From: Ruminococcus sp.
GTDB lineage: Bacteria > Bacillota > Clostridia > Oscillospirales > Ruminococcaceae
Direction of reading: 5' to 3'
DNA length: 41,938 bases
Assembly: GCA_017517145.1 (NCBI GenBank)
Contig: JAFXAJ010000126.1
Coordinates: forward strand, 1 to 41,938
Below, in pieces: positions 1-17,194 of this stretch. The position numbers and the translations under genes are program-made. The notes beneath the pieces were generated by a model that did no database searches, had not been told where the DNA came from, and was given only the letters and a program-made list of their open reading frames with translations. The number at the start of each line of letters is the position of its first letter. Positions within the stretch are counted from its first letter, which is position 1.

Positions 1-1314
1 ATCCCCGATGTTGCCATTAAAACATGGCTCAATACAATGACTCCTGTCAGCTTCGACGGCTCAAGCGCCGTTTTCAGCGTCCTTACCGGTTTCCAGAAGG
101 ACATCGTTATGAATAAGTACGTCAATGACCTCAAAGAGGCTTTCTTTGAAATGCTCGGTCTTGACGTAGACATAAAAATCAATGTGGAATCCGAAAATGA
201 CGACACTCCTGCTGCAATCCCCACAGAGGACGAGCTTGAAAAGAAAAATGCTGAGCTGGAACAGTCCTACAAATTCGCAAACTACGACTATACATTCGAT
301 ACATTTATTGAAGGTCCGTCTAACAGCTTTGCTCTCGCCTGCAGTAAATCCGTTGCGAAAAACTGCGGCGAAAATGACGTTTCAGGCTATAATCCTCTGT
401 TTATCTATGGTCCGTCAGGTATGGGCAAAACTCACCTTATTACAGCTATTGCAAATGAAGTCCGCCAGACTCGCCCTGAATACAACATCGTTTACATAAC
501 AAGCGAAACTTTCGGCAACGACCTAATCGCAGCTATCCAGAAAAATCAGATGTCAGATTTCCATGAAAAATACAGAAATGCCGATGTTCTTCTCATTGAC
601 GATATTCAGTTTCTCGCAGGAAAAGAACGTATGCAGGAGGAATTCTTCCATACATTCTATAAACTCCATCAGGAGGGAAAACAGATCGTAATCACCTCCG
701 ATAAGCCGCCAAAGGAGCTTATCACCCTTGAAGCCCGTCTCAGAACACGCTTTGAAGGCGGTCTTATTGCGGATATTTCCGCCCCTGACTTTGAAACAAG
801 ACTTGCTATTATCACACGCAAAAGTGAACTTCTCAGCCTGAAAATGCCTGCCGAAGTTTCAGAATTCATGGCAAACCGCCTGAAATCAAACATCCGTCAG
901 CTTGAAGGCGCTGTAATCCGACTCAAGGCTTTAAATCACTTCGCAGGAAGTCCCATTACAATTTCTATGGCTCAGAGCGTTATCCGTGATGTTCTCACCG
1001 ATGAACAGCCTATTCCGATTACTGTTGAAAAAATTATCAACGAGGTTTCTACCGTTTACGGCGTATCTCCCGATGACCTGCGCTCCAACAAGCGCTCACA
1101 ACAGATTTCTATTGCAAGAAAAGTCGCTATTTACGTTGTACGTGAGATTACAGATATGCCTCTTGCTTCAATCGGTACAGAATTCGGCGGCAGAGACCAC
1201 TCAACTATCGTTTATTCTGTTAACAGCATCGTTGCTTCAATCCAAAAGGATTCAAACCTCAGCAACCTTGTAAACGATATTATCAAGAATATTAAAGATA
1301 AGAGCAAGGGTTAA
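1..1314 (+). CDS. dnaA: Chromosomal replication initiator DnaA (5' end cut by window edge)
   Basis: DnaA binds origin boxes, oligomerises with ATP and opens the duplex. The reading frame is open from base 1 and the residues before the first in-window ATG (IPDVAIKTWLNT) read as domain I, so the gene starts upstream of the window and the ATG at 37 is internal. Domain I is followed by an acidic linker, then the AAA+ core with Walker A GPSGMGKTH (about residues 137-145 counted from base 1) and Walker B LLIDDIQF (DD at 200-201). Domain IV carries the DNA-recognition helix-turn-helix GGRDHSTIVYS near residues 396-406. Most DnaA proteins have RDHTT here, so the Ser at 1201-1203 is a substitution at a likely base-contact position. 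The gene is followed directly by the origin. Identity is certain; the missing N-terminus cannot be judged. Confidence 0.98.
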   Translation: MPDVAIKTWLNTMTPVSFDGSSAVFSVLTGFQKDIVMNKYVNDLKEAFFEMLGLDVDIKINVESENDDTPAAIPTEDELEKKNAELEQSYKFANYDYTFDTFIEGPSNSFALACSKSVAKNCGENDVSGYNPLFIYGPSGMGKTHLITAIANEVRQTRPEYNIVYITSETFGNDLIAAIQKNQMSDFHEKYRNADVLLIDDIQFLAGKERMQEEFFHTFYKLHQEGKQIVITSDKPPKELITLEARLRTRFEGGLIADISAPDFETRLAIITRKSELLSLKMPAEVSEFMANRLKSNIRQLEGAVIRLKALNHFAGSPITISMAQSVIRDVLTDEQPIPITVEKIINEVSTVYGVSPDDLRSNKRSQQISIARKVAIYVVREITDMPLASIGTEFGGRDHSTIVYSVNSIVASIQKDSNLSNLVNDIIKNIKDKSKG

Positions 1315-1350
1315 TTCAACGTTGAATTCACATTAAAGACAATGTGAATT
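1313..1350. repeat. Nested palindromes at the dnaA 3' end
   Basis: A perfect 16-base palindrome covers the dnaA stop (1313-1328, AATTCAAC/GTTGAATT). It overlaps a perfect 10-base inverted repeat, AATTCACATT (1325-1334) and AATGTGAATT (1341-1350), with a 6-base loop. There is no T-tract, so it is not an obvious intrinsic terminator. The half-sites resemble the nearby TTCAAC words, so it may be part of the origin's protein-binding array. Confidence 0.6.
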
Positions 1351-1886
1351 ATGTTGAAAAGTGAGTTTTCAACCGACTTTTCAACAGTGTGTTTAAAACT
1401 CCGTTGAAAAGTCATTATTTTATTAATGTCAGATATTTCCGCAAAAAGTTATCGCCTTGAAATTCTTAATTTTCATATTTTCAACGGGCTGAACTTTTCA
1501 ACATCTATTAAACTGTCGGGAAATATTTGTAAAAATTTAACCATTATCTCCCATTCAACAAATTTTTCCACTTTTCTTAAACTTCAACTCCACAAACTCA
1601 AACAGTTCCAACATTCAACAGGGGCTGAAAAGATGATTTTAACACTCCAAACAAATTTGCAACACCCGATTGTGGATGAATTTATGGCTTGAAATTGCGG
1701 AAAAATCAGCATACTGACTTTTCAACACACCCTACTACTACTACTATTTTATATTTACTTATTTTATCTTATCTTTTTTATTCTGTTTATTCTTAACTTA
1801 TCTTAACTTTTCTCAACTTCTCCGGAAACTTTCCCGGCTTCGCCGGCTGAATAGGAGGATTCGGTTTACAGGAGGATTTATATATA
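1315..1886. other. oriC: oriC: replication origin in the dnaA–dnaN spacer
   Basis: This 572-base gene-free spacer has the composition and position of a Firmicutes origin. DnaA-box-like words are mainly TTTTCAACA rather than the canonical TTATCCACA. Exact copies are at 1352-1360 (-), 1378-1386, 1495-1503 and 1719-1727. One-base relatives are at 1366-1374, 1402-1410 (-) and 1478-1486, a TTTTCCACT lies at 1564-1572, and CATTCAACA occurs at 1552-1560 and 1612-1620. The right part has a DnaA-trio and a long T/A-rich stretch (about 1745-1822). A short UUCG-type hairpin (1834-1846) and two Shine-Dalgarno-like AGGAGG runs precede dnaN. An 88-codon open frame at 1426-1692 is treated as chance. Origin function is inferred from context and architecture. 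Confidence 0.9.
1719..1800 (+). promoter_or_regulatory. Basal unwinding element: DnaA box, GC spacer, DnaA-trio, AT-rich DUE
   Basis: In order: a TTTTCAACA box (1719-1727), a short C-rich spacer CACCC (1728-1732), four TAC trinucleotides and a TAT (1733-1747), then an almost uninterrupted A/T stretch. The opposite strand reads as TAG repeats, which is the DnaA-trio motif known from Bacillus subtilis that loads DnaA onto single strands. The box, the GC-rich spacer and the trio have the expected order and spacing. Only the box sequence is unusual. This is the predicted initial melting site. Confidence 0.85.
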
Positions 1887-2990
1887 ATGAATTTTATTTG
1901 CAAAAAAAATGAACTCAGTGAAGCTATCAGCAACGTTTCAAGAGCTGTTCCTCAGAAATCAACTATTCCTGCTCTTGAAGGAATCAAAGTAAAAATTACT
2001 GACGGAGCTGTTGAACTTACAGGCTTTAATATGGAAATGGGTGTAACTACTTCTATCCAAGCCAATACAAGCGGTACAGGTGAATTTGTTCTCAATGTTC
2101 GTCTTTTCAGTGAATTTACAAGAAAAATGGCTGGAGATGAAGTCTCATTCACTATTGACGAAAATAATATTGTTAACGTTTCTTCAGAAGCTTCAGATTG
2201 TACTTTTTCAGCTATGTCAGCTGATGAATACCCTGATTTACCTGTGGTTAATTCTGAAAGATGCTTCAATGTTCCTCAGAATGTGCTCCGTTCTATGATT
2301 AATATGACAGGTTATGCTGTTTCTCAGAACGAAAGCAAACCTATTTTTACAGGTGAACTTTTTGATATTGATAATGAAAGCTTTACTCTCGTAGCAATTG
2401 ATGGATTCCGTCTTGCTATCAGAAATGAAACTATCCAAAATGAGGGTACTTTCAATTTTGTTGTACCCAAAAAGGCTTTGCAGGAGGTTGCTACCCTTAT
2501 TCGTGAGGATTGCAGTGAAAATTGTGTTATTAATGTCAGCGACAGACATATAATTTTTAAAATTAATAATTTTTACGTAATATCCAGACTTTTGGAGGGC
2601 GCATTCCACAACTATAAAATGAGTATCCCCTCAGGCTGCAAAACCGAAATTTTTGTTAATAAAAAGGATTTTGCAGCTTGTCTTGAAAGATGTTCTCTTA
2701 TTATTGACGAGAAAAATAAATGCCCTATTCGCTGTGAAATAGGAAACGGCATTATGAAAATCAACTGCAAAACGAGTATCGGAAAGGTAAATGATGCAAT
2801 TTCTGCCGATATTTCGGGAGAAGCTGTGACAATCGGTTTCAATAACCGTCTTGTTCTCGAAGCGCTCAAGGCTGCCGAGGGCGACAAGGTGAGAATCCGT
2901 CTTAACGGCGCAATGAAGGTTATTGAAATTCTTCCTCCCATGGGTGAAAACTATATTTTCCTTGTAATGCCTATTCAGTTAAAAAATTGA
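1887..2990 (+). CDS. dnaN: DNA polymerase III beta subunit (sliding clamp)
   Basis: The beta clamp encircles DNA as a dimer and tethers the replicative polymerase. The 367-residue product matches the family length and shows the clamp pattern of three repeated domains, with the N-terminal MNFICKKNELSEAISNVSRAV and a C-terminal end VMPIQLKN resembling the usual VMPMR tail. The start is supported by GGAGG at 1871-1875, eleven bases before the ATG. A second AGGAGG lies 18 bases further up. The gene sits directly downstream of oriC in the conserved order. The first two thirds use more A/T-ending codons than the neighbours, which is noticeable but not enough to suggest transfer. Confidence 0.98.
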   Translation: MNFICKKNELSEAISNVSRAVPQKSTIPALEGIKVKITDGAVELTGFNMEMGVTTSIQANTSGTGEFVLNVRLFSEFTRKMAGDEVSFTIDENNIVNVSSEASDCTFSAMSADEYPDLPVVNSERCFNVPQNVLRSMINMTGYAVSQNESKPIFTGELFDIDNESFTLVAIDGFRLAIRNETIQNEGTFNFVVPKKALQEVATLIREDCSENCVINVSDRHIIFKINNFYVISRLLEGAFHNYKMSIPSGCKTEIFVNKKDFAACLERCSLIIDEKNKCPIRCEIGNGIMKINCKTSIGKVNDAISADISGEAVTIGFNNRLVLEALKAAEGDKVRIRLNGAMKVIEILPPMGENYIFLVMPIQLKN

Positions 2991-3061
2991 GAGCCAATAG
3001 CTTTTAATTTTTTAAGCTAACGGTTCGAATTTATAATTTTTAATTATTGAGGAGGATAAGT

Positions 3062-3271
3062 ATGCCTGAAATTAAAATCACAACAGAATTTATAAAGCTT
3101 GACGCTCTGCTGAAATTCGCCTCAATGGTCGGTTCCGGCGGCGAAGCAAAAATGCTTATTCAGGACGGTCAGGTTCTCGTCAACGATGAGGTCTGCACCA
3201 TGCGTGGAAAAAAAATCCGCCCCGGTGATACCGTGAAAATTGTCGGCGGTGACGAGGTAACTGTGTGCTGA
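3062..3271 (+). CDS. rlbA: S4-domain RNA-binding protein (YaaA/RlbA type)
   Basis: This is a 69-residue S4-like RNA-binding protein of the kind always found between dnaN and recF in Firmicutes. It is thought to bind structured RNA, possibly rRNA, but its role is not firmly established. The S4 signature is visible: [25 protein letters not shown], then the loop [26 protein letters not shown]. The ATG at 3062 is chosen because GGAGG (3051-3055) lies just before it; an upstream TTG would place the ribosome site inside the gene. The end overlaps the recF start by seven bases, suggesting translational coupling. Confidence 0.92.
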
Positions 3272-4398
3272 TTACTAAGGTGAAAATAGACGGATTTAAA
3301 AATCTGTCTGAAATCTCCTTTGTGCCTGACACTTACTATAACATTATCGTGGGCGCTAATGCTCAGGGAAAAACAAATCTGCTGGAAGCGCTCTGGATTA
3401 TGTCAGGCTGCAAATCCTTCCGTGGCTCAAAGGAAAGGGACTATATCGCCCTTGATAAAAGCCGTTTTACCTCTGAAATCGGGATTTATGACAATTTTCG
3501 TCAGCAGAAAATCACCTACGAGATGATAAAAGGGGCAAATATTACCAAAAATATAACCATAAACGGCGTGAAACAAAAGGGTACACGAAATTTGTTTGAC
3601 GTTTTCAAATGTATTGCTTTTATCCCTGATGATGTAGAAATTATAAAGGGTGCGCCCGAAAAACGGCGTAATTTCATTGATATGGCGGCTTCTCAGCTGA
3701 ATCCTCTCTTTGTGGCGCATATCACGAAAAATCAGGCTGTCATGAATCAGCGCAATGCATTGCTGAAATCCATACTTCAAGGGGCTTCCGACAGCTCAAT
3801 TCTCGAAATATGGGACAAACAGGCGGCTCATGAGGGTGCGCTTATATCCTATATGCGTGACGGCTATATAAAAAAGCTCAACGGTGTGTGCTCAGAGCTT
3901 TATTCCGCTATTTCAGGCGGAAAAGAAAGGCTTGAACTGGAGTATAAATCAAACGTTTTCAAGGCGGAGGATTTCAATGAGCCCTGTAATGCCGCTGCTT
4001 ATGAAAAATATTTCAACAAACTCCGTGAAACGGAGGATTACGACATCCGCACGGGAATTACCCATTCAGGCGTAAACCGTGACGAAATAAATGTGAAAAT
4101 CAATGGCATCAGCGCCAAAGAGTACGGCTCGCAGGGACAGATTAAATCCGCTGCTCTCGTTATAAAGCTTGCTCAGGCGGAAATTTTTATGGAACGCAGC
4201 AAGGAAGCTCCCGTAGTATTTTTAGACGACGTTATGGGAGAACTTGACGAAAATCGTCAGCGTTTCGTTTTCGATATAATCAGAAATATGCAGGTGTTTA
4301 TCACCACTCCGAATGAAAGTGCGCTTCTTCCCGATATAAAGGGAAAAATCCTGCGTATGAACGGCGGCAGACTCACAGAGGAAAAATCAGATGAATAA
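3265..4398 (+). CDS. recF: DNA replication and repair protein RecF
   Basis: RecF is an SMC-like ATPase that helps load RecA at single-strand gaps. The 377-residue product has Walker A GANAQGKT (residues 30-37), the ABC-type signature YGSQGQ and Walker [14 protein letters not shown] near the C-terminus, all in family order and at normal length. The likely start is the GTG at 3265, with GAGGT about eight bases upstream inside rlbA; the next codon, CTG, cannot be excluded. The 3' end overlaps remB by eight bases, so rlbA, recF and remB form a tightly coupled unit. Confidence 0.96.
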
Positions 4399-4654
4399 AA
4401 CTATTTATCTTCATATCGGCAATAACTATTCAGTGGATGTCCGTGAAATTATCGGGATTTTCGATATGGATAATACCACTGTCACAAGCTGTACAAAAAA
4501 GCTCCTCGATAAGGCTGAAAAGGAAAAACGCCTGTTTTTAGCCACTTATGAGCTGCCGAAAACTTTTGTTATTACAAAAAAGCGAGTTTATATTTCTCAG
4601 CTTGCCGCAAGCACCCTTAAAAAACGTCTTGAAAAGGGCGGAGGATATAATTAA
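4391..4654 (+). CDS. remB: RemB/YaaB-type DUF370 protein
   Basis: This 87-residue protein belongs to the DUF370 group, whose Bacillus members (RemA, RemB) activate extracellular-matrix genes. The N-terminal [32 protein letters not shown] is characteristic, and the position between recF and gyrB is the conserved place for remB. An AGAGG at 4377-4381, inside recF, supplies the ribosome site nine bases before the ATG. The C-terminal third (ITKKRVYISQLAASTLKKR) is basic, as expected for a nucleic-acid-binding ring protein. Its target genes are unknown here. Confidence 0.85.
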   Translation: MNKTIYLHIGNNYSVDVREIIGIFDMDNTTVTSCTKKLLDKAEKEKRLFLATYELPKTFVITKKRVYISQLAASTLKKRLEKGGGYN

Positions 4655-4671
4655 CACGTAATTCAATTAAG

Positions 4672-4735
4672 CAGAGGCTGCCTCTGGCAGTCCGTCAAAA
4701 GAATTCAGAGAATAATTCATAATTCTGAATTCTTA
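4672..4735. repeat. Intergenic hairpin module plus AT-rich repeat before gyrB
   Basis: The spacer holds CAGAGG/CCTCTG (4672-4686). The 18 bases at 4676-4693 match 41854-41871 in inverted orientation at 17 of 18 positions. Next to it, 4709-4734 contains the AT-rich AATTCATAATTCTGAATTC unit, related to repeats at 7225 and 20721. No coding potential was seen. Confidence 0.65.
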
Positions 4736-4758
4736 AATAAAAAAACCGGGAGGTACTC

Positions 4759-6684
4759 ATGAGTCAGCAGAATAATAATTACGATGAAAATGATATACAA
4801 ATTCTGGAAGGACTGGAAGCTGTAAGAAAAAGACCGGGTATGTACATCGGTTCTACAGGACCAAGCGGTCTGCACCACCTTGTATATGAAATCGTTGATA
4901 ACTCTATTGACGAGGCACTTGCAGGCTTCTGCACCGAAATAAAGGTAGATATACTCCCCGGAGATGTTATCAGGGTATCCGATAACGGCCGTGGTATCCC
5001 TGTTGGTATTCACCCGAAGGAGGGGATTTCTGCGGCTACCGTTGTATATACTATCCTCCACGCAGGCGGAAAATTCGGCGGCGGCGGATATAAAGTGTCG
5101 GGCGGTCTGCATGGCGTCGGCGCTTCCGTTGTTAATGCCCTTTCGGAATGGCTTGAACTCACTGTCAGGGACGGTGAAAATGTCTGGTTCCAGCGCTTTG
5201 AACGTGGTCACTATGACGAGGAGCTGAAAGTTATCGACAAAACCTCGGAAACTGGTACAAGCGTTATGTTCAAGGCTGACGGTGAAATCTTTGAGCAGAC
5301 TGTCTACGACTTTGAAACGCTGCTGAAAAGACTCCGTGAACAGGCTTTTCTCAACGCAGGTATAAAAATTACCTTTTCTGACCTGCGTGACGAAAATGAT
5401 ATAAAATCCGAAACTCTCCACTACGAGGGCGGTATCCGTCAGTTTGTGGAGCATATACATGAAACAAGAGGATATATTCCCCTTAGCGAGAATGTTATTT
5501 ATGTTTCGGGTATGCAGGGGGATTCCTTTGCGGAAATTGCCCTCCAGTACAACGACAGCTACAATGAGATTATTCTCTCATTTGCAAATAATATCCATAC
5601 CAAAGACGGCGGATACCATGAAACAGGTTTTAAAAATGCCCTTACCAAGGTTATAAACGACTATGGTAAAAAAATGGGTCTGCTCAAGGACAAGGAAAAG
5701 CTCAGCGGCGATGACGTTCGTGAAGGACTTACCGCTATTATCTCCGTAAAGCTTACCGAATGTGAATTTGAGGGACAGACTAAGGGTCGTCTTGGAAATC
5801 CCGAAGTAAAGCCTTTTGTTGAAAAGCTTGTGCAGGAAAAGCTGATGAATTTCCTTGAGGAAAATCCAGAAACTGCAAAGGCTATCTTTGAAAAGGCACT
5901 CTCTGCACTGAAAGCCCGTGAAGCTGCAAAACGTGCACGAGATGCCGAGCGTAAGAAAAATGCTTTCGGAAATGCTTCAATGCCCGAAAAACTGGCAGAT
6001 TGTGCCGAGCGTGACGCAAGATATACTGAAATTTATATCGTAGAGGGAGACTCTGCGGGCGGTTCTGCAAAGCAGGGCCGTGACAGAAAATATCAGGCTA
6101 TTCTCTCTCTCTGGGGAAAAATGCTCAACGTGGAAAAAGCCCGTCTTGACAAGATTTACAGCAACGAGAAGCTTGCTCCCGTGGTTACAGCTCTCGGTAC
6201 AGGCATAGGCGAGGAATTTGACATTGAAAAACTCCGCTACGGAAAAGTTATTATTATGGCGGATGCCGACGTTGACGGTATGCATATCAGAACTCTGCTG
6301 CTGACATTTTTCTTCCGCTATATGCGTCCTCTTATCTCAAACGGAAACGTTTATATCGCACAGCCTCCCCTGTTCAAGGTATGGCGAGGCAAAAAGGAGC
6401 GATACGCATTCTCAGACGAGGAGCGTGACCAGTTTATCAGCGAGCTTTCCGAGGACGGCAAGTACAAGGTTGATGTTCAGCGTTATAAAGGTCTTGGTGA
6501 GATGGACCCTGAACAGCTTTGGGAAACTACTATGGACCCTGAAAGACGTACTATCGTAAAAATCGGTATGGAGGACGCTCTGAAAGCAGACGAGACATTC
6601 TCTATTCTCATGGGCGATAAGGTTGAGCCGAGAAGAAAATTCATCGAGAAAAATGCAAAGTTTGCCCAGAATCTTGACATATAA
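4759..6684 (+). CDS. gyrB: DNA gyrase subunit B
   Basis: This is the ATPase and TOPRIM subunit of gyrase, which introduces negative supercoils. The 641-residue product has the GHKL ATPase motifs [19 protein letters not shown] and [14 protein letters not shown], the transducer region, and the TOPRIM motif [16 protein letters not shown] (Glu429, Asp431) with DADVDGMH further on. GGGAGGT about four bases upstream supports the ATG. An oddity is SLWGKMLN at residues 450-457, where Escherichia coli has PLKGKILN and many Gram-positives PLRGKILN; Trp452 therefore sits at the position of E. coli Lys447, part of the quinolone-resistance region. It could in principle be ParE, but the position next to gyrA near oriC favours GyrB. 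Confidence 0.97.
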
Positions 6685-6696
6685 CGAGGGCAGGAA

Positions 6697-7224
6697 ATGG
6701 AAGAAAATATAAAGCTTGTAAAGGAATTTTCCCATACTGCGCCGATTCTGCGGCAGGGTATAAGAGCATATCAAAAAAAATATATTATGCCCATGTCATA
6801 CGTGAAAATGGTGTTGTATCTGGTTCTTGCCGTTGTTATGGCGTGTGGAATTATTTTCGGAAATATTGGAAATGCCATGAGATTTGCGGCATATCTGGTG
6901 ATAGCTGTGGCTTTTGCCCTGATTTTCCGCTGCTGGTATAATCCCATGAAACTCCGTGACAGCGTTGTTGAGAGTCTCTTGCAGCAGGAGGATTCACCTG
7001 TATATCGCCTTACCGTAAGGGAAAAGGAATTTGAAATTGCTGCTGTTCCCACAGAGGATGACGAGGAAATTGAACCTACAGTTATTCCTGCTGACAGTGG
7101 AACTGAAATAGTTGAGGGGGACGGATTTTTCCTGATTGTACATGGAAAATCGGTTTATTATATTATTCCTACAGCGGATTTTTCTTCCGCTGAAATGGAA
7201 ATTATGCGAAATATATCCAATTAA
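6697..7224 (+). CDS. Two-helix membrane protein, possibly YcxB-like, between gyrB and gyrA
   Basis: This is a 175-residue protein of unknown function. After a basic N-terminus there are two adjacent hydrophobic segments (about residues 36-53 and 61-79), then a soluble C-terminal half with an acidic stretch (EDDEEIEPT) and an ending, FLIVHGKSVYYIIPTADFS, that resembles the C-terminal domain of YcxB-like proteins. GAGGGCAGG precedes the ATG 12 bases after the gyrB stop, so it is co-transcribed with gyrB. The family call is tentative and no catalytic motif is visible. Confidence 0.7.
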   Translation: MEENIKLVKEFSHTAPILRQGIRAYQKKYIMPMSYVKMVLYLVLAVVMACGIIFGNIGNAMRFAAYLVIAVAFALIFRCWYNPMKLRDSVVESLLQQEDSPVYRLTVREKEFEIAAVPTEDDEEIEPTVIPADSGTEIVEGDGFFLIVHGKSVYYIIPTADFSSAEMEIMRNISN

Positions 7225-7322
7225 GAATTATGAATTAAGAATTAAGATTTGCTGAGGGTAATATATAACGACGAATTTATCATTGGCAATTCTAACCTCT
7301 AATCTCTAATTTCTAATTTCTA
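7225..7322. repeat. AT-rich intergenic repeat between the YcxB-like gene and gyrA
   Basis: The left end carries AAGAATTATGAATTAAG and the right end (7289-7322) a run of imperfect TCTAATTTCTAA units. The middle is unremarkable. The left unit recurs at 4709-4734 and 20721-20845. It may be a degraded small mobile repeat. No terminator T-tract is evident. Confidence 0.55.
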
Positions 7323-7336
7323 AGAGGAGGTTTAAC

Positions 7337-9964
7337 GTGTTATATAACGATAATTCAAAAATTATACATTCCGACCTTGTGGACGAAATGGAAAATTCCA
7401 TGCTGCAATACGCAATGTCGGTTATAGTTTCAAGAGCACTTCCCGATGTCAGGGACGGTCTGAAACCTGTTCACAGACGTATTCTCTATACGCTTCACGA
7501 GAACGGTCTGACTCCTGATAAAGCGTACAGAAAATGTGCCGATACTGTCGGTGCAGTTCTGGGACGTTATCACCCTCATGGTGACGCTTCGGTTTATGAC
7601 GCTCTTGTAAGACTTGCACAGGATTTTTCACTTCGCTATCCCCTTGTTGACGGTCACGGTAACTTCGGTTCTATCGACGGCGATAAGGCGGCTGCCTACC
7701 GTTATACCGAGGCTAAAATGGCTAAACTGACGCTGGATATGCTTCAGGACATCAACAAGGAAACTGTTGATTATATGCCAAACTATGACGACCGACTGAA
7801 AGAACCTGTTGTACTGCCCTCCAGATTCCCGAATCTGCTTGTAAACGGTTCTACAGGTATTGCTGTTGGTATGGCGACAAATATTCCTCCTCATAATCTG
7901 GGCGAGGTTGTAGACGCTTTACAGCTTCTTATTGATGACCCCGACTGCACTCTTGACCAGCTTATGGAGCATATCAAAGGACCTGATTTCCCCACAGGCG
8001 GTATTGTCATGGGTAAGGCAGGAATACGTGCTGCCTACGGTACAGGACGAGGAAAGATTATTCTCCGCAGCCGTACTCACTTCGAGGAAATCAAGGGAAG
8101 AAACTGTATCATAGTTGACGAAATTCCCTATATGGTGAATAAAACACTTATTCTCAAAAATATCAATCAGCTTTGCAAGGATAAGCGTCTGGAGGGTATT
8201 TATTTCCTCCGTGACGAGTCTGATAAGGACGGTCTGCGTATCGTTATTGAGCTGAAAAAGGACGCTATACCCGAAATTGTTCTTAATAAGCTGTTTGCTA
8301 TGACTAAATTGCAGGATACAGTTGGCATTATCATGCTTGCCCTTGTAAACGGCGAGCCTAAGGTGCTTACTCTCAAGGAAATGCTCAACCATTACCTTGA
8401 CTTTCAGGTTGATGTCATTCAGCGCCGTACACGCTTTGACCTGCGAAAGGCTCTTGAAAGAGCGCATATCTTACAGGGCTTTATTCTTGCTGCAGATTAT
8501 ATTGACGAGGTTGTTGCAATTCTCCGCAGCAGCAAGACTATCCCCGAAGCTAAGGAGCGCATGATAGAGCGCTTCAAGGATGTGGATATGAGTGCACTTC
8601 TTGACCGTGCACAGTACGACATGACAAATATTCATCATCTTGAACATCAGATGGGACTTTCAGAGGATCAGGCGGAAGCTATTGTTCAGATGCGTCTTGG
8701 TGCTCTCACAGGTCTGGAGCGTCAGAAGATAACCGACGAATTGTACGGTCTGTTGACTAAGATTTCAGACTTGGAGGATATTCTCGCAGATGTCAACCGT
8801 GTTTACCAGATTATTATGGAGGACCTTAACGTAATACGTAAGAAATTCAGCGACAACCGCCGTACAGATATTGAATCAGTCAGCGGAGAAGTGGATATAG
8901 AGGACCTTATCCCCGTTGAGGATTGCGTGGTAACACTCACAAATAACGGCTACATCAAGCGTATGCCCGTTGCTGAATACAAGACTCAGAAGCGTGGCGG
9001 ACGTGGTATCACAGGCATGAAACAGCGTGAGGAAGATTTCGTAGAGGAAATGTTTATCTGCGGAACTCACGATAATATTCTCTTTATCACCAACAAGGGA
9101 ATTATGTACAAGCTGAAATGCTACGAGATTCCCGACGGTTCAAAGGCTTCCCGTGGCTATAATCTCATAAATCTCCTGCCTCTTACGGAAAATGAAAAGG
9201 TAACGGCTATGCTGAAAACCGAGGATTTCGGAGACGACAGATTTATCACAATTGTTACGAAAAACGGAAAAATCAAGCGTACCAATCTTTCTCTCTACAA
9301 AAATGTGCGTAAAAACGGACTTATTGCAATTGGTCTTGATGAGGGCGATGAAATTGCAGGCTGCCGCATGACTAACGGAAACGAGCAGATTTTCGTTGCT
9401 ACACGAAACGGTATGGCAATCCGCATTGAGGAAGAAAAGGGCAGAGCGCTGTCACGTGCAGCTCACGGTGTAAAGGCGATAAAGCTGCGTGAGGGTGACT
9501 ATGTTGTAGGCATTGCAAAGGTTCGTGAAGGTGCGTCACTGCTGACTGTTACTGAGAATGGCTACGGAAAGCGTACAGAAATTGAAAGCTACCGAATCCA
9601 GAACCGTGGCGGTTATGGTCTGACTAACTACAAGGTTGATGAAATCCGTGGTCACGTATGCGGAATCAAGATTGTTGACGATACGGACGATGTGATTCTC
9701 GTTTCCAGCGACGGTATAATTATCCGAATCCATGCCGAGGATGTACGTATTATGGGCAGAATCGCCAAGGGTGTCCGTGTGATGCGTGTTGGCGAGGGCG
9801 CTAAGGTTGTGGCGTTTACTCGTACAGAACGTGACGACAGTGCAGAAACTGAAAAGGTTGAGCAGCTTACCGAGGAGCAGATAAGAGCCGCAGAGGCTGA
9901 GGCTGCCGAGGAGGAGAAAAACGAGGTTGTCATCGAAGCTGATGAGAACGAGGATGAAGAATAA
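7337..9964 (+). CDS. gyrA: DNA gyrase subunit A
   Basis: This is the DNA-cleaving and wrapping subunit of gyrase. The 875-residue product has the winged-helix core with RYTEAKM containing the catalytic tyrosine, and a C-terminal beta-pinwheel with the GyrA-box-like QKRGGRGI. It ends in a long acidic tail rich in Glu and Asp. The GTG at 7337 is supported by GAGGAGG six bases upstream. In the quinolone-binding helix the sequence is HPHGDASVYD: Ala84 and Ser85 replace the usual Ser-Ala pair (E. coli 83-84), while the acidic residue Asp88 (E. coli Asp87) is kept. The GyrA-box in the first pinwheel blade supports GyrA over ParC. Confidence 0.97.
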   Translation: MLYNDNSKIIHSDLVDEMENSMLQYAMSVIVSRALPDVRDGLKPVHRRILYTLHENGLTPDKAYRKCADTVGAVLGRYHPHGDASVYDALVRLAQDFSLRYPLVDGHGNFGSIDGDKAAAYRYTEAKMAKLTLDMLQDINKETVDYMPNYDDRLKEPVVLPSRFPNLLVNGSTGIAVGMATNIPPHNLGEVVDALQLLIDDPDCTLDQLMEHIKGPDFPTGGIVMGKAGIRAAYGTGRGKIILRSRTHFEEIKGRNCIIVDEIPYMVNKTLILKNINQLCKDKRLEGIYFLRDESDKDGLRIVIELKKDAIPEIVLNKLFAMTKLQDTVGIIMLALVNGEPKVLTLKEMLNHYLDFQVDVIQRRTRFDLRKALERAHILQGFILAADYIDEVVAILRSSKTIPEAKERMIERFKDVDMSALLDRAQYDMTNIHHLEHQMGLSEDQAEAIVQMRLGALTGLERQKITDELYGLLTKISDLEDILADVNRVYQIIMEDLNVIRKKFSDNRRTDIESVSGEVDIEDLIPVEDCVVTLTNNGYIKRMPVAEYKTQKRGGRGITGMKQREEDFVEEMFICGTHDNILFITNKGIMYKLKCYEIPDGSKASRGYNLINLLPLTENEKVTAMLKTEDFGDDRFITIVTKNGKIKRTNLSLYKNVRKNGLIAIGLDEGDEIAGCRMTNGNEQIFVATRNGMAIRIEEEKGRALSRAAHGVKAIKLREGDYVVGIAKVREGASLLTVTENGYGKRTEIESYRIQNRGGYGLTNYKVDEIRGHVCGIKIVDDTDDVILVSSDGIIIRIHAEDVRIMGRIAKGVRVMRVGEGAKVVAFTRTERDDSAETEKVEQLTEEQIRAAEAEAAEEEKNEVVIEADENEDEE

Positions 9965-9972
9965 TCCTGCCC

Positions 9973-10779
9973 ATGAAATTTATACTGTTTGTATTATTAT
10001 TTATTACAATTGCCGTCTTTTATGCTCTTTTTGAAAATGTTTTCGTGCTGTTCAGACGGCATGAGAATCTGGGCGGCAATGTGAAAATTCTTCATATTTC
10101 AGACTGTCACCGCAGCAATAAGCCATGGCGTAACAGGCGGATTATCTCTGCTGCAAAGGCAGAAAATCCCGATTTTATATTTATCACAGGGGATTATGTC
10201 TCCCGTACAGAAACGGATTTTTCCGCTGCTGAGACGCTTTTGCGTGACTTGTGCCTCGTTGCGCCCGTGTATATGTGCATGGGAAATCATGAGCAGAGCT
10301 TTCTCAATGACAATCTTGGAGAATTCTTTGAAGCTGTTGACAGAACAGATGCAAAAATGCTTGTGAACTGCGGTGAATATGCCGAAGTAAAGGGCAGGAA
10401 GTTTTATATCTGCGGACTTATGCAAAATTACACTACGTATAAAAAAGACGGCGGATATAAAAATCTTGATGGTTTTACTCTTTCTGAAATGCAGAATTTT
10501 CTGGGTGAATGTCCCTGTGAAAATACCCTGCTGCTTGCACATAATCCGCTTTTTGGGCAGATTTATGCTGACTGGGGCGCAGATTTTACATTCAGCGGTC
10601 ATATACACGGCGGTGTGGTACGGCTTTTCGGCAAGGGAATTCTATCACCTGAACGGCGGTTATTTCCGCAATATTCCAAGGGAATTTACGATATATCGGG
10701 AAAAAAGCTGCTTGTATCTGCCGGCATAGGCAAGCTAAGGATGTTTAATCCGCCGGAAGTTATTATTTATAGAATTTAG
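9973..10779 (+). CDS. Membrane-anchored calcineurin-like metallophosphoesterase (YkuE type)
   Basis: This 268-residue enzyme has an N-terminal hydrophobic anchor (residues 2-20) and all five metallophosphoesterase motifs in order: DCH in HISDCH, GDY in FITGDYV, GNHE, H in LLAHNP, and GHIHGG. These bind two metal ions and cleave a phosphodiester or phosphomonoester. YkuE-like members act at the membrane, but the substrate cannot be read from sequence. It starts eight bases after gyrA without a strong ribosome site of its own, suggesting coupling to gyrA. A strong terminator begins at the stop codon. Confidence 0.9.
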   Translation: MKFILFVLLFITIAVFYALFENVFVLFRRHENLGGNVKILHISDCHRSNKPWRNRRIISAAKAENPDFIFITGDYVSRTETDFSAAETLLRDLCLVAPVYMCMGNHEQSFLNDNLGEFFEAVDRTDAKMLVNCGEYAEVKGRKFYICGLMQNYTTYKKDGGYKNLDGFTLSEMQNFLGECPCENTLLLAHNPLFGQIYADWGADFTFSGHIHGGVVRLFGKGILSPERRLFPQYSKGIYDISGKKLLVSAGIGKLRMFNPPEVIIYRI

Positions 10780-10806
10780 GGACACGGCAAAAACGTGTCC
10801 CTTTTT
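10779..10806 (+). terminator. Intrinsic terminator after the phosphoesterase gene
   Basis: Perfect 8-base stem GGGACACG (10779-10786) and CGTGTCCC (10794-10801), A-rich loop, then five further T residues. It ends the gyrB–gyrA–phosphoesterase transcription unit. Confidence 0.92.
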
Positions 10807-10821
10807 TCAAGGAGGCTAAAT

Positions 10822-12339
10822 ATGATTAAAAAAATTGTTTCAGTAGTTACAGCTGTTATGACGGCGGCTGTCATAGCTGCAAATCCCTTGCAAAAGGCTG
10901 ATTCTTTTGACGTTTACGAAGACCCTGTGCGCCAGACGCTTTTTCTCAATCAGAGAAATCTTGCGGAATTTGTCTTTCTGGACGAAACAGGGCAGGGACT
11001 ATACAATTACGAAATTGTGATGAAAAACGCCGCAGGTGTTGAAGTAGGGCGCTTTGTAGATGATTACGGAAATGAATTCTCTATGCTTAATTCGTCAGGA
11101 ATCAGAAAAGCCGATAAATGGCAGATAACGGAAAAATATCTGGCTGACCTTGTTGCGCCCCTTGTTCCGAGATATGTTTCCGAGACATATTATGAAGAGA
11201 TAGGCGGAGAACCGGTAAAAACCTTGTCTAATCTGCATGATTATTCGCCCGATAATAGTATTACACTTAACTATCTTGAAGAATCAGAGGATTATTACGA
11301 TCATTACCGTGTATTTTCATATCCGCAGGGGGAAACGACCGCATTCACTATTCCTGCGAATAAAATCGGCATTTTCGTTGATAAAAAGTGGGAGAATTTC
11401 AATGCCAGAGGCTACTACAAAATGGGAGCAGACGGCGCAAAAAAGTACTTCGACAATAACGAAATGTTCGGAAGTCTCAAGGTCTGGGCACCCAAAAAGG
11501 ATACCAAAGAACTGCGAATAGGTGTTGCAGAGGTCACAAATCCTCATCACCCTATTTATCCTCCGAAATTACAAAATCAAAAAACGGAATATATAAAGTG
11601 TAAGATGAACGTTACAGAATTGTTTGACCTTTTATTTCTTTGGGATATGCAAGAAACAAGCCTCACCGAGGACGGAAAGGTCATGTATAGAGATAAAATA
11701 TTTAATCTTAGAAAAAGAAATAAAAATACTTGGGGAATGATTACTATAACAAGCGGTGCATGCGTAACTGTTGCGATGCCCGGTTCAGCAGGAAATGTCG
11801 AGTTTTACGTAGAAAAAGGCTCACGCCAGATGGCTGCGGAAATCCGTATTAACTACACTGACGATAACGGCGGAGGATGGCATAGTAATTGTACTGCTAA
11901 AAATTATTACGGAAAGGTGCACGAATTCAGAATCGAAACTCCGCAGATGCACGACGAAGGCGGCGTAATAGTCGATAATATTCCCGCAGGACAGTACACT
12001 CTTGAGCTGAGATCTATCTTTGATAATAAGCCATTTCCGCAGACTCACACGATAAATGTCACGGATAGTAAATATCAGCAGTTCTTTGTGGAAAGTTTTA
12101 ATACTGAATATACGCTGAAAAACGGCGATACGGACTTAAATAACTTAGTTGATGCCTCAGATGCAAGCAATATTCTTGCGGAATATGCGGCATTATCCAC
12201 AGGCAAACCAACAATATTTTTGGAAAACCAGAAATATGCCGCCGATGTAAACGGTGACGAAGTTATTAACGCAATTGACGCAAGTCTTGTTCTGGAGCAT
12301 TATGCAGATGTTTCGATAGGCGGAAAAGGTACGCTTTAA
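10822..12339 (+). CDS. Secreted dockerin-containing protein of unknown function
   Basis: This 505-residue exported protein starts with a signal peptide (MIKKIVSVVTAVMTAAVIAA). The ATG at 10822 is chosen because AGGAGG lies immediately upstream; an earlier GTG falls inside the preceding terminator. Residues from about 25 to 430 match no catalytic family I recognise; beta-rich stretches such as TINVTDSKYQQFF could be immunoglobulin-like. The C-terminus is a type I dockerin with two calcium loops: DTDLNNLVDASD and DVNGDEVINAID. Dockerins plug into cohesins of scaffoldins, so the protein is predicted to be carried in a cellulosome- or amylosome-like complex or on the cell surface. Its passenger function is open. 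Confidence 0.85.
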   Translation: MIKKIVSVVTAVMTAAVIAANPLQKADSFDVYEDPVRQTLFLNQRNLAEFVFLDETGQGLYNYEIVMKNAAGVEVGRFVDDYGNEFSMLNSSGIRKADKWQITEKYLADLVAPLVPRYVSETYYEEIGGEPVKTLSNLHDYSPDNSITLNYLEESEDYYDHYRVFSYPQGETTAFTIPANKIGIFVDKKWENFNARGYYKMGADGAKKYFDNNEMFGSLKVWAPKKDTKELRIGVAEVTNPHHPIYPPKLQNQKTEYIKCKMNVTELFDLLFLWDMQETSLTEDGKVMYRDKIFNLRKRNKNTWGMITITSGACVTVAMPGSAGNVEFYVEKGSRQMAAEIRINYTDDNGGGWHSNCTAKNYYGKVHEFRIETPQMHDEGGVIVDNIPAGQYTLELRSIFDNKPFPQTHTINVTDSKYQQFFVESFNTEYTLKNGDTDLNNLVDASDASNILAEYAALSTGKPTIFLENQKYAADVNGDEVINAIDASLVLEHYADVSIGGKGTL

Positions 12340-13079: not shown

Positions 13080-13273
13080 TTTTCCACTTAAACTGTCGAT
13101 AAACTTTCAACAGAGTGTTGAAAGAGGGGTTGAATACTAACTTGAATTGTTGAAAACTCTGTGGAGAGTGTGGAGAACAACGTATTTCCGATGTTTTAAA
13201 AGGTCAAAATTGTTAAAAACTTGTTGGATAATCGGGGAAACGGTGGTAATAATAAAAAATGTATTGTGGAAAA
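13080..13273. other. Second cluster of DnaA-box-like motifs
   Basis: In 194 bases between two divergent genes there are about eight words close to TTTTCAACA or TTTTCCACA: 13080-13088 (+), the palindromic pair CTTTCAACA/TGTTGAAAG at 13104-13124, 13128-13136 (-), exact TGTTGAAAA at 13148-13156, tandem TGTGGAGAG and TGTGGAGAA at 13160-13177, TGTTGGATAA at 13222-13231 and TGTGGAAAA at 13265-13273. The density rivals oriC. No DnaA-trio is evident, so a titration or regulatory cluster is more likely than a second origin. Confidence 0.6.
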
Positions 13274-13672: not shown

Positions 13673-13743
13673 TTTTCAACATTTTCAAAATGAAATGTTG
13701 AAAAAAGTCCCCGCTGATTCTGATTTCTCAGAAACAGTGGGGA
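13673..13743. terminator. Back-to-back hairpins between convergent genes, one built from two DnaA-box words
   Basis: The first hairpin has 12-base arms (13673-13684 and 13693-13704) that contain TTTTCAACA and its complement. The second pairs CCCCGCTG with CAGTGGGG (13709-13743) around an inner TTCTGA/TCAGAA stem. Read on the - strand the second is followed by a T-run, so it terminates the dipeptidase gene. The first may end the lipoprotein gene. Confidence 0.75.
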
Positions 13744-16411: not shown

Positions 16412-17194
16412 CTATTGGTTGTTTAGCATAAATGCCGAAAAATAGCCAACGTAATCGGCACAAAAACGGTCAAAATCGGGTGGTGAGAACAAGTTTTCAA
16501 CATCTTTGTGCAATAATTCCATACACTGTCCTAACCCCAGATTTTCGGGTAAAATCAGACCTCCAACGGATAATCTCATTAATTTTTCAACATGATTTTC
16601 AACAGCGGCAAACATTCGCTTGACCTGATGATATTTTCCTTCAAATAACTCAATAAAAGCCAGTTTATCGCAGTTTTCAACAGCTTTCACCCTTGCAGGC
16701 AGACATATTTCACCGCTTGAAAGTTTAATACCATCAGCAAATATGTCAATATATTTACTTTCAAAACTTCTGTCAAGTTTCACAAGATAAATTTTCGGCA
16801 CATGGCTTTTAGGCGACAGCATACGATGTGCAAGCTCGCCGTCATCGGTTATCAGCAGCGCACCAAGGGAGTCCTTGTCCAGCCGTCCCGCAGGAAAAAG
16901 TCCTTTTTTACGCAGTTCAGGGGGGATTAGCTGCATGACGCTGATGCCGTCGTGTTCTTCGGTAGAACTGACATAGCCATCGGGCTTATTCAACAGTATA
17001 TAGCGGAATTTCGAGGCTGAAACAGGAATTCCGCAGACTTCAACGGCAGCGGACTCCAAATCAATTTTGGTATCGGATTTTTTGACGATTGCTCCGTTAA
17101 CGACGATTTTCCCTGATGCTGCAAGGGATTTAATTTGGCTTCGGGAGTAGTCAGAGCGTTCGGAAATATACTTATCAAGACGTATTACAGGCAT
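16412..17194 (-). CDS. RsuA/RluB-family pseudouridine synthase
   Basis: This 260-residue enzyme isomerises a uridine in rRNA to pseudouridine. An N-terminal S4 domain (IRLDKYISERSDYSRSQIKSL) is followed by the catalytic domain, with the Asp in AGRLDKDS and the conserved YILLNKPDG and GKYHQVKRM. The ATG at 17194 is preferred because AAAGGTG lies six bases upstream; a GTG at 17203 overlaps that ribosome site. RsuA (16S U516) is the closest match by length, but the exact site is not provable. The motif usually written LLLLTNDG reads ALLITDDG. Four TTTTCAACA words lie in the complementary strand of its 3' third. The tail after SPPDF is an extra 15-20 residues. Confidence 0.88.
   Translation of the reverse strand: MPVIRLDKYISERSDYSRSQIKSLAASGKIVVNGAIVKKSDTKIDLESAAVEVCGIPVSASKFRYILLNKPDGYVSSTEEHDGISVMQLIPPELRKKGLFPAGRLDKDSLGALLITDDGELAHRMLSPKSHVPKIYLVKLDRSFESKYIDIFADGIKLSSGEICLPARVKAVENCDKLAFIELFEGKYHQVKRMFAAVENHVEKLMRLSVGGLILPENLGLGQCMELLHKDVENLFSPPDFDRFCADYVGYFSAFMLNNQ

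Follow-up and report, generated by a model that had tools for sequence, protein, structure and literature searches.

The stretch of DNA analysed here (41,938 nucleotides; hereafter the window) is contig C126 from its first base, in a Ruminococcus genome of 1.964 Mb that is 80% complete. Profile matches give the gene order dnaA, dnaN, recF, gyrB and gyrA, with dnaA (1..1314, forward strand) having lost its 5′ end at the contig start (open reading frame from 37) and dnaN following on the same strand at 1887..2990 (TIGR00663, E 1.6e-80). The first product falls within the DnaA equivalog family (TIGR00362, E 2.6e-141; 471.7 bits, above the cut-off of 343.9), and its closest named relatives are Ruminococcus MAGs and R. 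flavefaciens isolates, with DnaA identities of at most 93%. The GC skew flips sign at the dnaA–dnaN spacer, from −0.119 over 1–1314 to +0.092 over 1887–12000, and 40 of 42 relatives have a lower skew 5′ than 3′ of it. The spacer itself contains four exact copies and four near-copies of the word TTTTCAACA in 572 bp, a box cluster that, like the change of skew sign, is characteristic of an oriC of the dnaA–dnaN type. The spacer, 1315–1886, is likely the chromosome's replication start site, and the contig does not reach the origin's upstream half.

Probable DnaA-box words on both sides of dnaA

The exact copies of TTTTCAACA, all predicted DnaA boxes, are found at 1352..1360 (reverse strand), 1378..1386, 1495..1503 and 1719..1727 (forward strand), and the near-copies are TTTTCAACC at 1366..1374 (forward), TTTTCAACG at 1402..1410 (reverse) and 1478..1486 (forward), and TTTTCCACT at 1564..1572 (forward). 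The canonical box TTATCCACA has no exact copy in 1315–1886, where the closest word is the one-mismatch TCATCCACA at 1671, in agreement with the preliminary description, which had TTTTCAACA replacing the usual word in this spacer. Compared with the consensus TTWTNCACA as given in PMC7561715, the nine bases of TTTTCAACA match at all positions except 6 (C to A) and, because T is already permitted at position 3, the true novelty amounts to one base. Across the 1.964 Mb of the genome, TTTTCAACA occurs 188 times against 30 for the reversed-word control, compared with 30 against 21 for TTATCCACA. From the genome total of 188, 0.055 copies would be expected in the spacer, which is 73-fold denser in the word than the genome as a whole (Poisson P = 3.6e-7 for at least four copies). 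The word also extends beyond the spacer, with 18 copies in the whole window (1.18 after shuffling), eight of them at 13.1–16.7 kb.

Conservation of TTTTCAACA in related spacers had been set as a test in the preliminary description, and 75 dnaA–dnaN spacers were compared, consisting of the window and 74 of 80 named loci (six without a dnaN match were dropped). Grouped by DnaA identity to the window, they comprised group A (≥75%; 42 spacers including the window), group B (55–70%; 16 spacers) and group C (<55%; 17 spacers). The word is kept in 40 of 41 group A spacers without the window (41 of 42 with it; the one spacer missing it is L026) and in 15 of 16 from group B, and is present in 4 of 17 from the distant kin of group C. 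Without having been chosen beforehand, it is the commonest 9-mer in the spacers of both A and B, with 136 copies against 4.4 expected in the 41 group A spacers (window left out) and 60 against 1.5 in the 16 of group B, a roughly 30- to 40-fold enrichment over an order-2 model in non-coding DNA. Three group A spacers of 1.3–1.5 kb (L038, L039 and L041) carry 16–17 copies each, compared with 0–9 in the other 39.

Single substitutions in the 41 group A spacers define the word further: at position 3, T (136 copies) has almost entirely displaced A (4), and position 6 is A in 136 of the 171 TTTTCNACA copies, with C in 32, G in 2 and T in 1, and so is mostly not the C of the canonical box. Changes at positions 2–4, 7 and 8 are rare, none exceeding 11 copies against 136, and position 1 is little constrained. 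Substitution counts were used in place of an expectation-maximisation motif search, which collapsed onto AT-rich low-complexity sequence and was dropped. The word is likewise common 5′ of dnaA, with 103 copies spread over all 42 group A loci that extend far enough (reversed word, 0) and a presence in 14 of 17 group B loci, and this occurrence on both sides of dnaA gives the origin a bipartite appearance. In the trio-proximal box of 107 relatives, positions 2–9 read TTTCCACC in 29, TTTCAACA in 26 and TTTCCACA in 19, a split which means that position 6 is A in only part of the relatives.

Counts of TTATCCACA, TTTTCCACA and TTTTCAACA were 39/9/14 in the class sample (37 spacers), 24/48/20 in the order sample (48 spacers) and 0/5/7 in other genera of the same family (6 spacers), the leading word being TTATCCACA in the class, TTTTCCACA in the order and TTTTCAACA in the family and genus. 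A two-step change of the box word thus seems likely, with T at position 3 arising before A at position 6, the order being read from these counts. TTTTCCACA, which matches the cyanobacterial box published in PMC10225481, remains a minority word in group A spacers, and TTTTCAACA is not exclusive to the group, since the class and order samples contain it too, though less often.

Domain IV of the window DnaA (1000..1311, forward strand), the DNA-binding domain, has R399, A423, D433, H434, S435 and Y439 at the contact positions (E. coli numbering), so three of six differ from the R399, P423, D433, H434, T435 and H439 that PMC7561715 reports as base-contact residues for Firmicutes and E. coli. Every one of the 42 group A DnaAs, that of the window among them, has A423, S435 and Y439. 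S435 and Y439 are likewise found throughout group C (17 of 17), where TTTTCAACA is absent from 13 spacers, and therefore cannot be the sole cause of the word. Of 97 Clostridia loci from beyond the close group, 40 have P423, and 24 of these contain TTATCCACA, compared with 17 of the 57 others (Fisher p 0.0037, kinship ignored); a search for a single domain IV residue accounting for the box word found none. Thermotoga maritima oriC similarly combines a divergent box with retained TAG triplets of an extended trio and Asn at the 187 column (B. subtilis numbering), but its box is unrelated to TTTTCAACA, and all but one of its base-contact residues are described as unlike those of Firmicutes (PMC7561715). 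Seven rumen or gut Clostridia loci (L073, L075–L079 and L081) have a DnaA recognition helix altered from RDH to RHY (D433H, H434Y), with trio-proximal words still like TTTCCACA or TTTTAACA.

The presumed unwinding element and its triplet arrays

The 1719..1727 word is the predicted trio-proximal box of a basal unwinding system (BUS) and is followed on the forward strand by a 4-bp spacer, CACC (1728..1731), five CTA triplets (CTACTACTACTACTA; 1732..1746) that place five 3′-GAT-5′ trios on the bound strand, and an AT-rich stretch with TTATC repeats (1747..1810), presumed from its sequence to be the unwinding element. The order of box, spacer, trios and AT-rich DNA had been proposed for 1719–1800 and is present as claimed. 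A box 4 bp from five middle-adenine triplets falls within the published BUS definition (at most 16 bp and at least three such triplets; PMC8287927), and under the accompanying box rule of at most two mismatches to TTATCCACA the word only just qualifies. As the B. subtilis BUS is described in PMC8287927 and PMC10721633, the window shares its order (DnaA-boxes, GC-rich gap, DnaA-trios), orientation, 4-bp gap (published average 4, PMC8287927) and top-strand CTA, and the window DnaA retains Asn187, Ile190, Ile193 and Glu228 (the Asn187 codon lies at 517..519, forward strand, by alignment to 8btg), while Arg202 of the B. subtilis protein is His. It differs in the box word TTTTCAACA and in having one clear box at 1719 and no tandem pair, and many of its relatives differ further in possessing CAA trios together with Ser, Gly or Ala at residue 187. 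Several group B spacers have two abutting boxes (e.g., TTTTCAACAGTTTCAACA) that resemble the tandem boxes of B. subtilis. The preliminary view that the origin keeps its unwinding logic and changes the word can thus be retained in refined form, the change being one base from the consensus and the A at position 6 being limited to part of the relatives.

A strict search for box, gap and triplets on the expected strand matched 17 of 43 group A, 9 of 16 group B and 8 of 17 group C spacers (26 of 59 in A and B, window counted), with a gap of 4 in 32 of all 34 matches; reversed, complement and reverse-complement control readings matched none in A and B and two in C. Most of the 26 group A spacers that failed carry CAACAACAACAACAA, or CTATAACAACAACAA and similar sequences, at the array site. 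With further GTDB genomes added, a larger set of 171 loci was reduced to 117 distinct DnaAs by dropping 54 duplicates (over the last 330 residues), whose array class never conflicted, and a wider triplet set allowed an array to be scored in 107 of the 117. The gap is 4 bp in 102 of these 107 relatives' arrays, a count that is partly built in because the scoring favours CTA, CAA and a 4-bp gap (the last by one point). Of 81 group loci, 57 have TTATC-like repeats such as those at 1763–1806 of the window just after the array, 21 of them among the 32 CTA-type loci and 36 among the 49 of CAA-type.

When the 107 arrays are sorted by how many of their five top-strand triplets have A in the middle, 46 have none, 12 have one or two, and 49 have three to five. 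The last class (CAA-type) possesses mostly CAA, with some TAA, in place of CTA, and with CAA on the top strand the DnaA-bound strand carries T where the DnaA-trio has its central adenine, so that in 49 of 107 arrays three to five of the five triplets depart from the middle adenine of the BUS definition. Each position of the array carries on average 1.79 bits, whether computed from 32 CTA-class segments or from 49 of the CAA class (flanks, 0.64–0.74), and by this equality CAA is as constrained as CTA. CAA arrays are present in R. flavefaciens FD-1, ATCC 19208, MA2007, YAD2003 and YL228, and XPD3002 has a mixed array. In the 12 intermediate arrays the first two triplets are always CTA, with CAA in ten, TAA in L053 and a doubtful TAC in L278, and 13 of the 49 CAA-type arrays keep CTA or ATA as the first triplet. 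The intermediates suggest a path in which later triplets change first and the triplet near the box tends to change last, an order contradicted by L101 (CAA CTA CTA CAA CAA).

The exact box-4bp-CWACAACWACWA pattern was found in 0 of 345 order-level genomes, a sample in which the genus was represented only by the window's genome and one other, and since the pattern demands a 4-bp gap and CAA as the second triplet, this indicates that the exact form is rare outside the genus, no more. At class level 10 of 391 genomes matched, of which seven resemble chance or coding repeats by eye and three, from one genus, provide a lead; no dnaA or dnaN match was found in the ten stretches of about 3 kb each. 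These three loci (L295–L297; genomes G840, G653 and G692), from a far Clostridia family, share TTTCCCACC-GCCC-CAACAACAAC followed by AT-rich DNA, a candidate origin that is intergenic in L295 and has a skew flip in one of the three. L185, the only DnaA sampled in this genus, has Tyr187, and the gene after it is mnmE, not dnaN.

Array class and DnaA residue 187

The cryo-EM structure of the B. subtilis protein places a bond between the amine of the central adenine and the essential Asn187, and the strands separate more slowly when thymine takes the place of that adenine, with an A-to-T origin growing and initiating worse than an A-to-C origin (PMC10721633). Residue 187 was picked from that study prior to tabulation. 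It is not Asn in 40 of 49 CAA-type loci compared with 4 of 58 others (B. subtilis numbering): arrays without a middle A have Asn in 44 and Ser in 2, those with one or two have Asn in 10 and Ser in 2, those with three to five have Asn in 9, Ser in 30, Gly in 9 and Ala in 1, and the loci with no array have Asn in all 10. Five of the CAA-type loci with Asn187 belong to one clade (L010, L227, L228, L232 and L233) and four occur elsewhere (L029, L101, L224 and L246), while a four-member clade (L045, L281, L282 and L284) has Ser187 with mainly CTA arrays. As the exceptions run both ways, Ser187 appears to tolerate CTA, and CAA does not appear strictly dependent on the change at 187.

Among 100 order and class loci outside the group, residue 187 is Asn in 83, Ser in 5, another residue in 8 and unalignable in 4. 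Two of the five Ser187 loci (L157 and L182) have mixed CTA/CAA runs and one (L133) has a weaker match containing CAA. CTA-type arrays occur with Thr (L131), Val (L174), Tyr (L186) and Ile (L211), and four Asn187 loci (L136, L144, L172 and L173) have CAA in the array or run.

Ranked by mutual information with array class over 323 variable DnaA columns in the 107 loci, residue 196, which contacts the third trio base, came first and residue 187 sixth, or eighth once DnaN columns were counted. Among loci of at least 70% identity, 187 was ninth of 294 columns and twelfth with DnaN, and in this subset a DnaN column without a known trio link outranks 196, indicating that shared ancestry inflates these scores. 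A tree of DnaA and DnaN, built by a quick method with residues 178–206 omitted and with good support for 59 of its 114 inner branches, places 6 changes in the array and 7 at Asn187. One parsimony resolution puts changes at 187 on 4 of the 6 array-change branches (9 changes in total) and changes at residue 435 on 5 of 6, yet with 29 changes in total. Depending on ancestral ties, the array and residue 187 share 2 or 4 of 6 branches (104 and 96 of 200 resolutions), and sharing 2 has a P of 0.006 weighted by branch length or 0.011 with uniform weights. Independent contrasts gave a mean of 2.8 (array-first) or 3.0 (residue-first) concordant pairs, none opposed and 1.2 or 2.0 flat, with a median sign-test p of 0.25, the pairs being too few to reach 0.05. 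The association between array and residue 187 clusters by phylogeny, with exceptions in both directions.

An origin model and its alternatives

Taken together with its relatives, 1315–1886 is very probably the downstream half of a bipartite origin of the R. flavefaciens group of Ruminococcus, with a rewritten box and trio-based unwinding. DnaA domain IV would bind TTTTC(A/C)ACA boxes flanking dnaA on both sides and, by homology with the B. subtilis BUS, a DnaA oligomer would start from the 1719 box, cross the 4-bp gap and load on the bottom strand of the CTA triplets, where the AAA+ domain would capture the first two bases of each 3′-GAT-5′ trio and open the AT-rich DNA. The box would have drifted from TTATCCACA to TTTTCCACA to TTTTCAACA, the domain IV contacts A423, S435 and Y439 differing too, and in part of the genus the array would have gone from CTA to CAA, mostly alongside replacement of the trio-reading Asn187 by Ser, Gly or Ala. 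If this explanation is true, DnaA of the group would favour TTTTCAACA over TTTTCTACA or scrambled sites. That both origin codes were rewritten successively, the box and then in part the trio (3′-GAT-5′ to 3′-GTT-5′), with co-evolution of residues 187 and 196, is a reading we consider somewhat favoured.

The box word could instead mark the site of a different origin-binding protein, with DnaA still acting on scattered, degenerate canonical boxes; domain IV does retain R399, D433 and H434, the canonical-like TCATCCACA is present at 1671, and the majority of TTTTCAACA copies lie outside the origin. Such a protein is nevertheless improbable, as TTTTCAACA occupies the exact place of the trio-proximal DnaA box and flanks dnaA on both sides, is one base off TTTTCCACA and alternates with it at the same site, and TTATCCACA barely exceeds its control (30 against 21 genome-wide, none in the spacer). 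An artefact of composition or coding, in which AT-rich DNA or GTTGAAAA as a possibly common in-frame string generates the word, would fit the general excess hinted at by the genome-wide totals (188, and 30 for the reversed word), but is scarcely credible beside the 18 copies against 1.18 in the shuffled window, the spacer's 73-fold excess over the genome's own rate and the enrichment of the same word in relatives' non-coding spacers (about 30- to 40-fold over the order-2 model).

For the CAA arrays, a neutral repeat with the true trios elsewhere, or DnaA on the other strand, would account for the persistence of Asn187 in 9 of 49 CAA-type loci and for residues other than Asn at 187 beside CTA-type arrays (4 of 58, and L131, L174, L186 and L211 outside the group), and a strand switch would retain an adenine (the top strand reads AAC from 3′ to 5′). 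We regard this as rather unlikely, since CAA arrays match CTA arrays in position, length and mean information (1.79 bits), 12 intermediate arrays have CTA as their first two triplets, and a strand switch would demand reversed polarity away from the box. CAA arrays as rewritten trios are a natural candidate for a form anticipated by Pelliciari et al. 2021, where the trio is defined by its middle adenine and deviant trios lacking it are suspected (PMC8287927). The literature searched, with subscription journals mostly outside it, yielded no report of a trio without adenine or of this origin.

The CAA-type DnaA-bound strand reads TTGTTGTTG, a tandem TTGT, and is in this respect like the E. coli ssDUE, for which PMC10316083 describes recruitment through TTGT/TTATT motifs reached via DNA bending from the boxes. 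At the 187 column the E. coli protein carries Gln208 in place of Asn; the CAA-type motif differs in lying only 4 bp from its box. The likeness is a lead, and if two-code rewriting is true it would supply the suspected trio of Pelliciari et al. 2021 and link the TAG-type trio to the TTGT of E. coli.

The box word alone is a modest natural variant, well supported at the sequence level, and interest is raised by the relatives, in which a second origin code was apparently rewritten too, with steps visible in living species that include named isolates. Such origins may be overlooked or wrongly scored by origin-finding software that expects TTATCCACA and trios with a middle adenine. Nature has here supplied a series of DnaA proteins matched with their origins, the two varying together at a single residue and a single base, and through these pairs what sets the single-strand specificity of DnaA becomes directly testable.

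A second cluster of TTTTCMACA words lies about 11.5–15 kb to the right of oriC (13080–13273, 13673–13704 and 16494–16682). Its intergenic part at 13080..13273 (no strand assigned) is upstream of a small lipoprotein-like gene, with a lipobox judged by eye and no Pfam match, four copies sit within a pseudouridine synthase gene, and the cluster includes an inverted pair able to form a hairpin. The intergenic part is found in six of six relatives (L305–L310) and the inverted pair in five of six, and at the position matching 13080–13273 all six have at least three copies, compared with two in the window. The cluster is possibly a DnaA reservoir.
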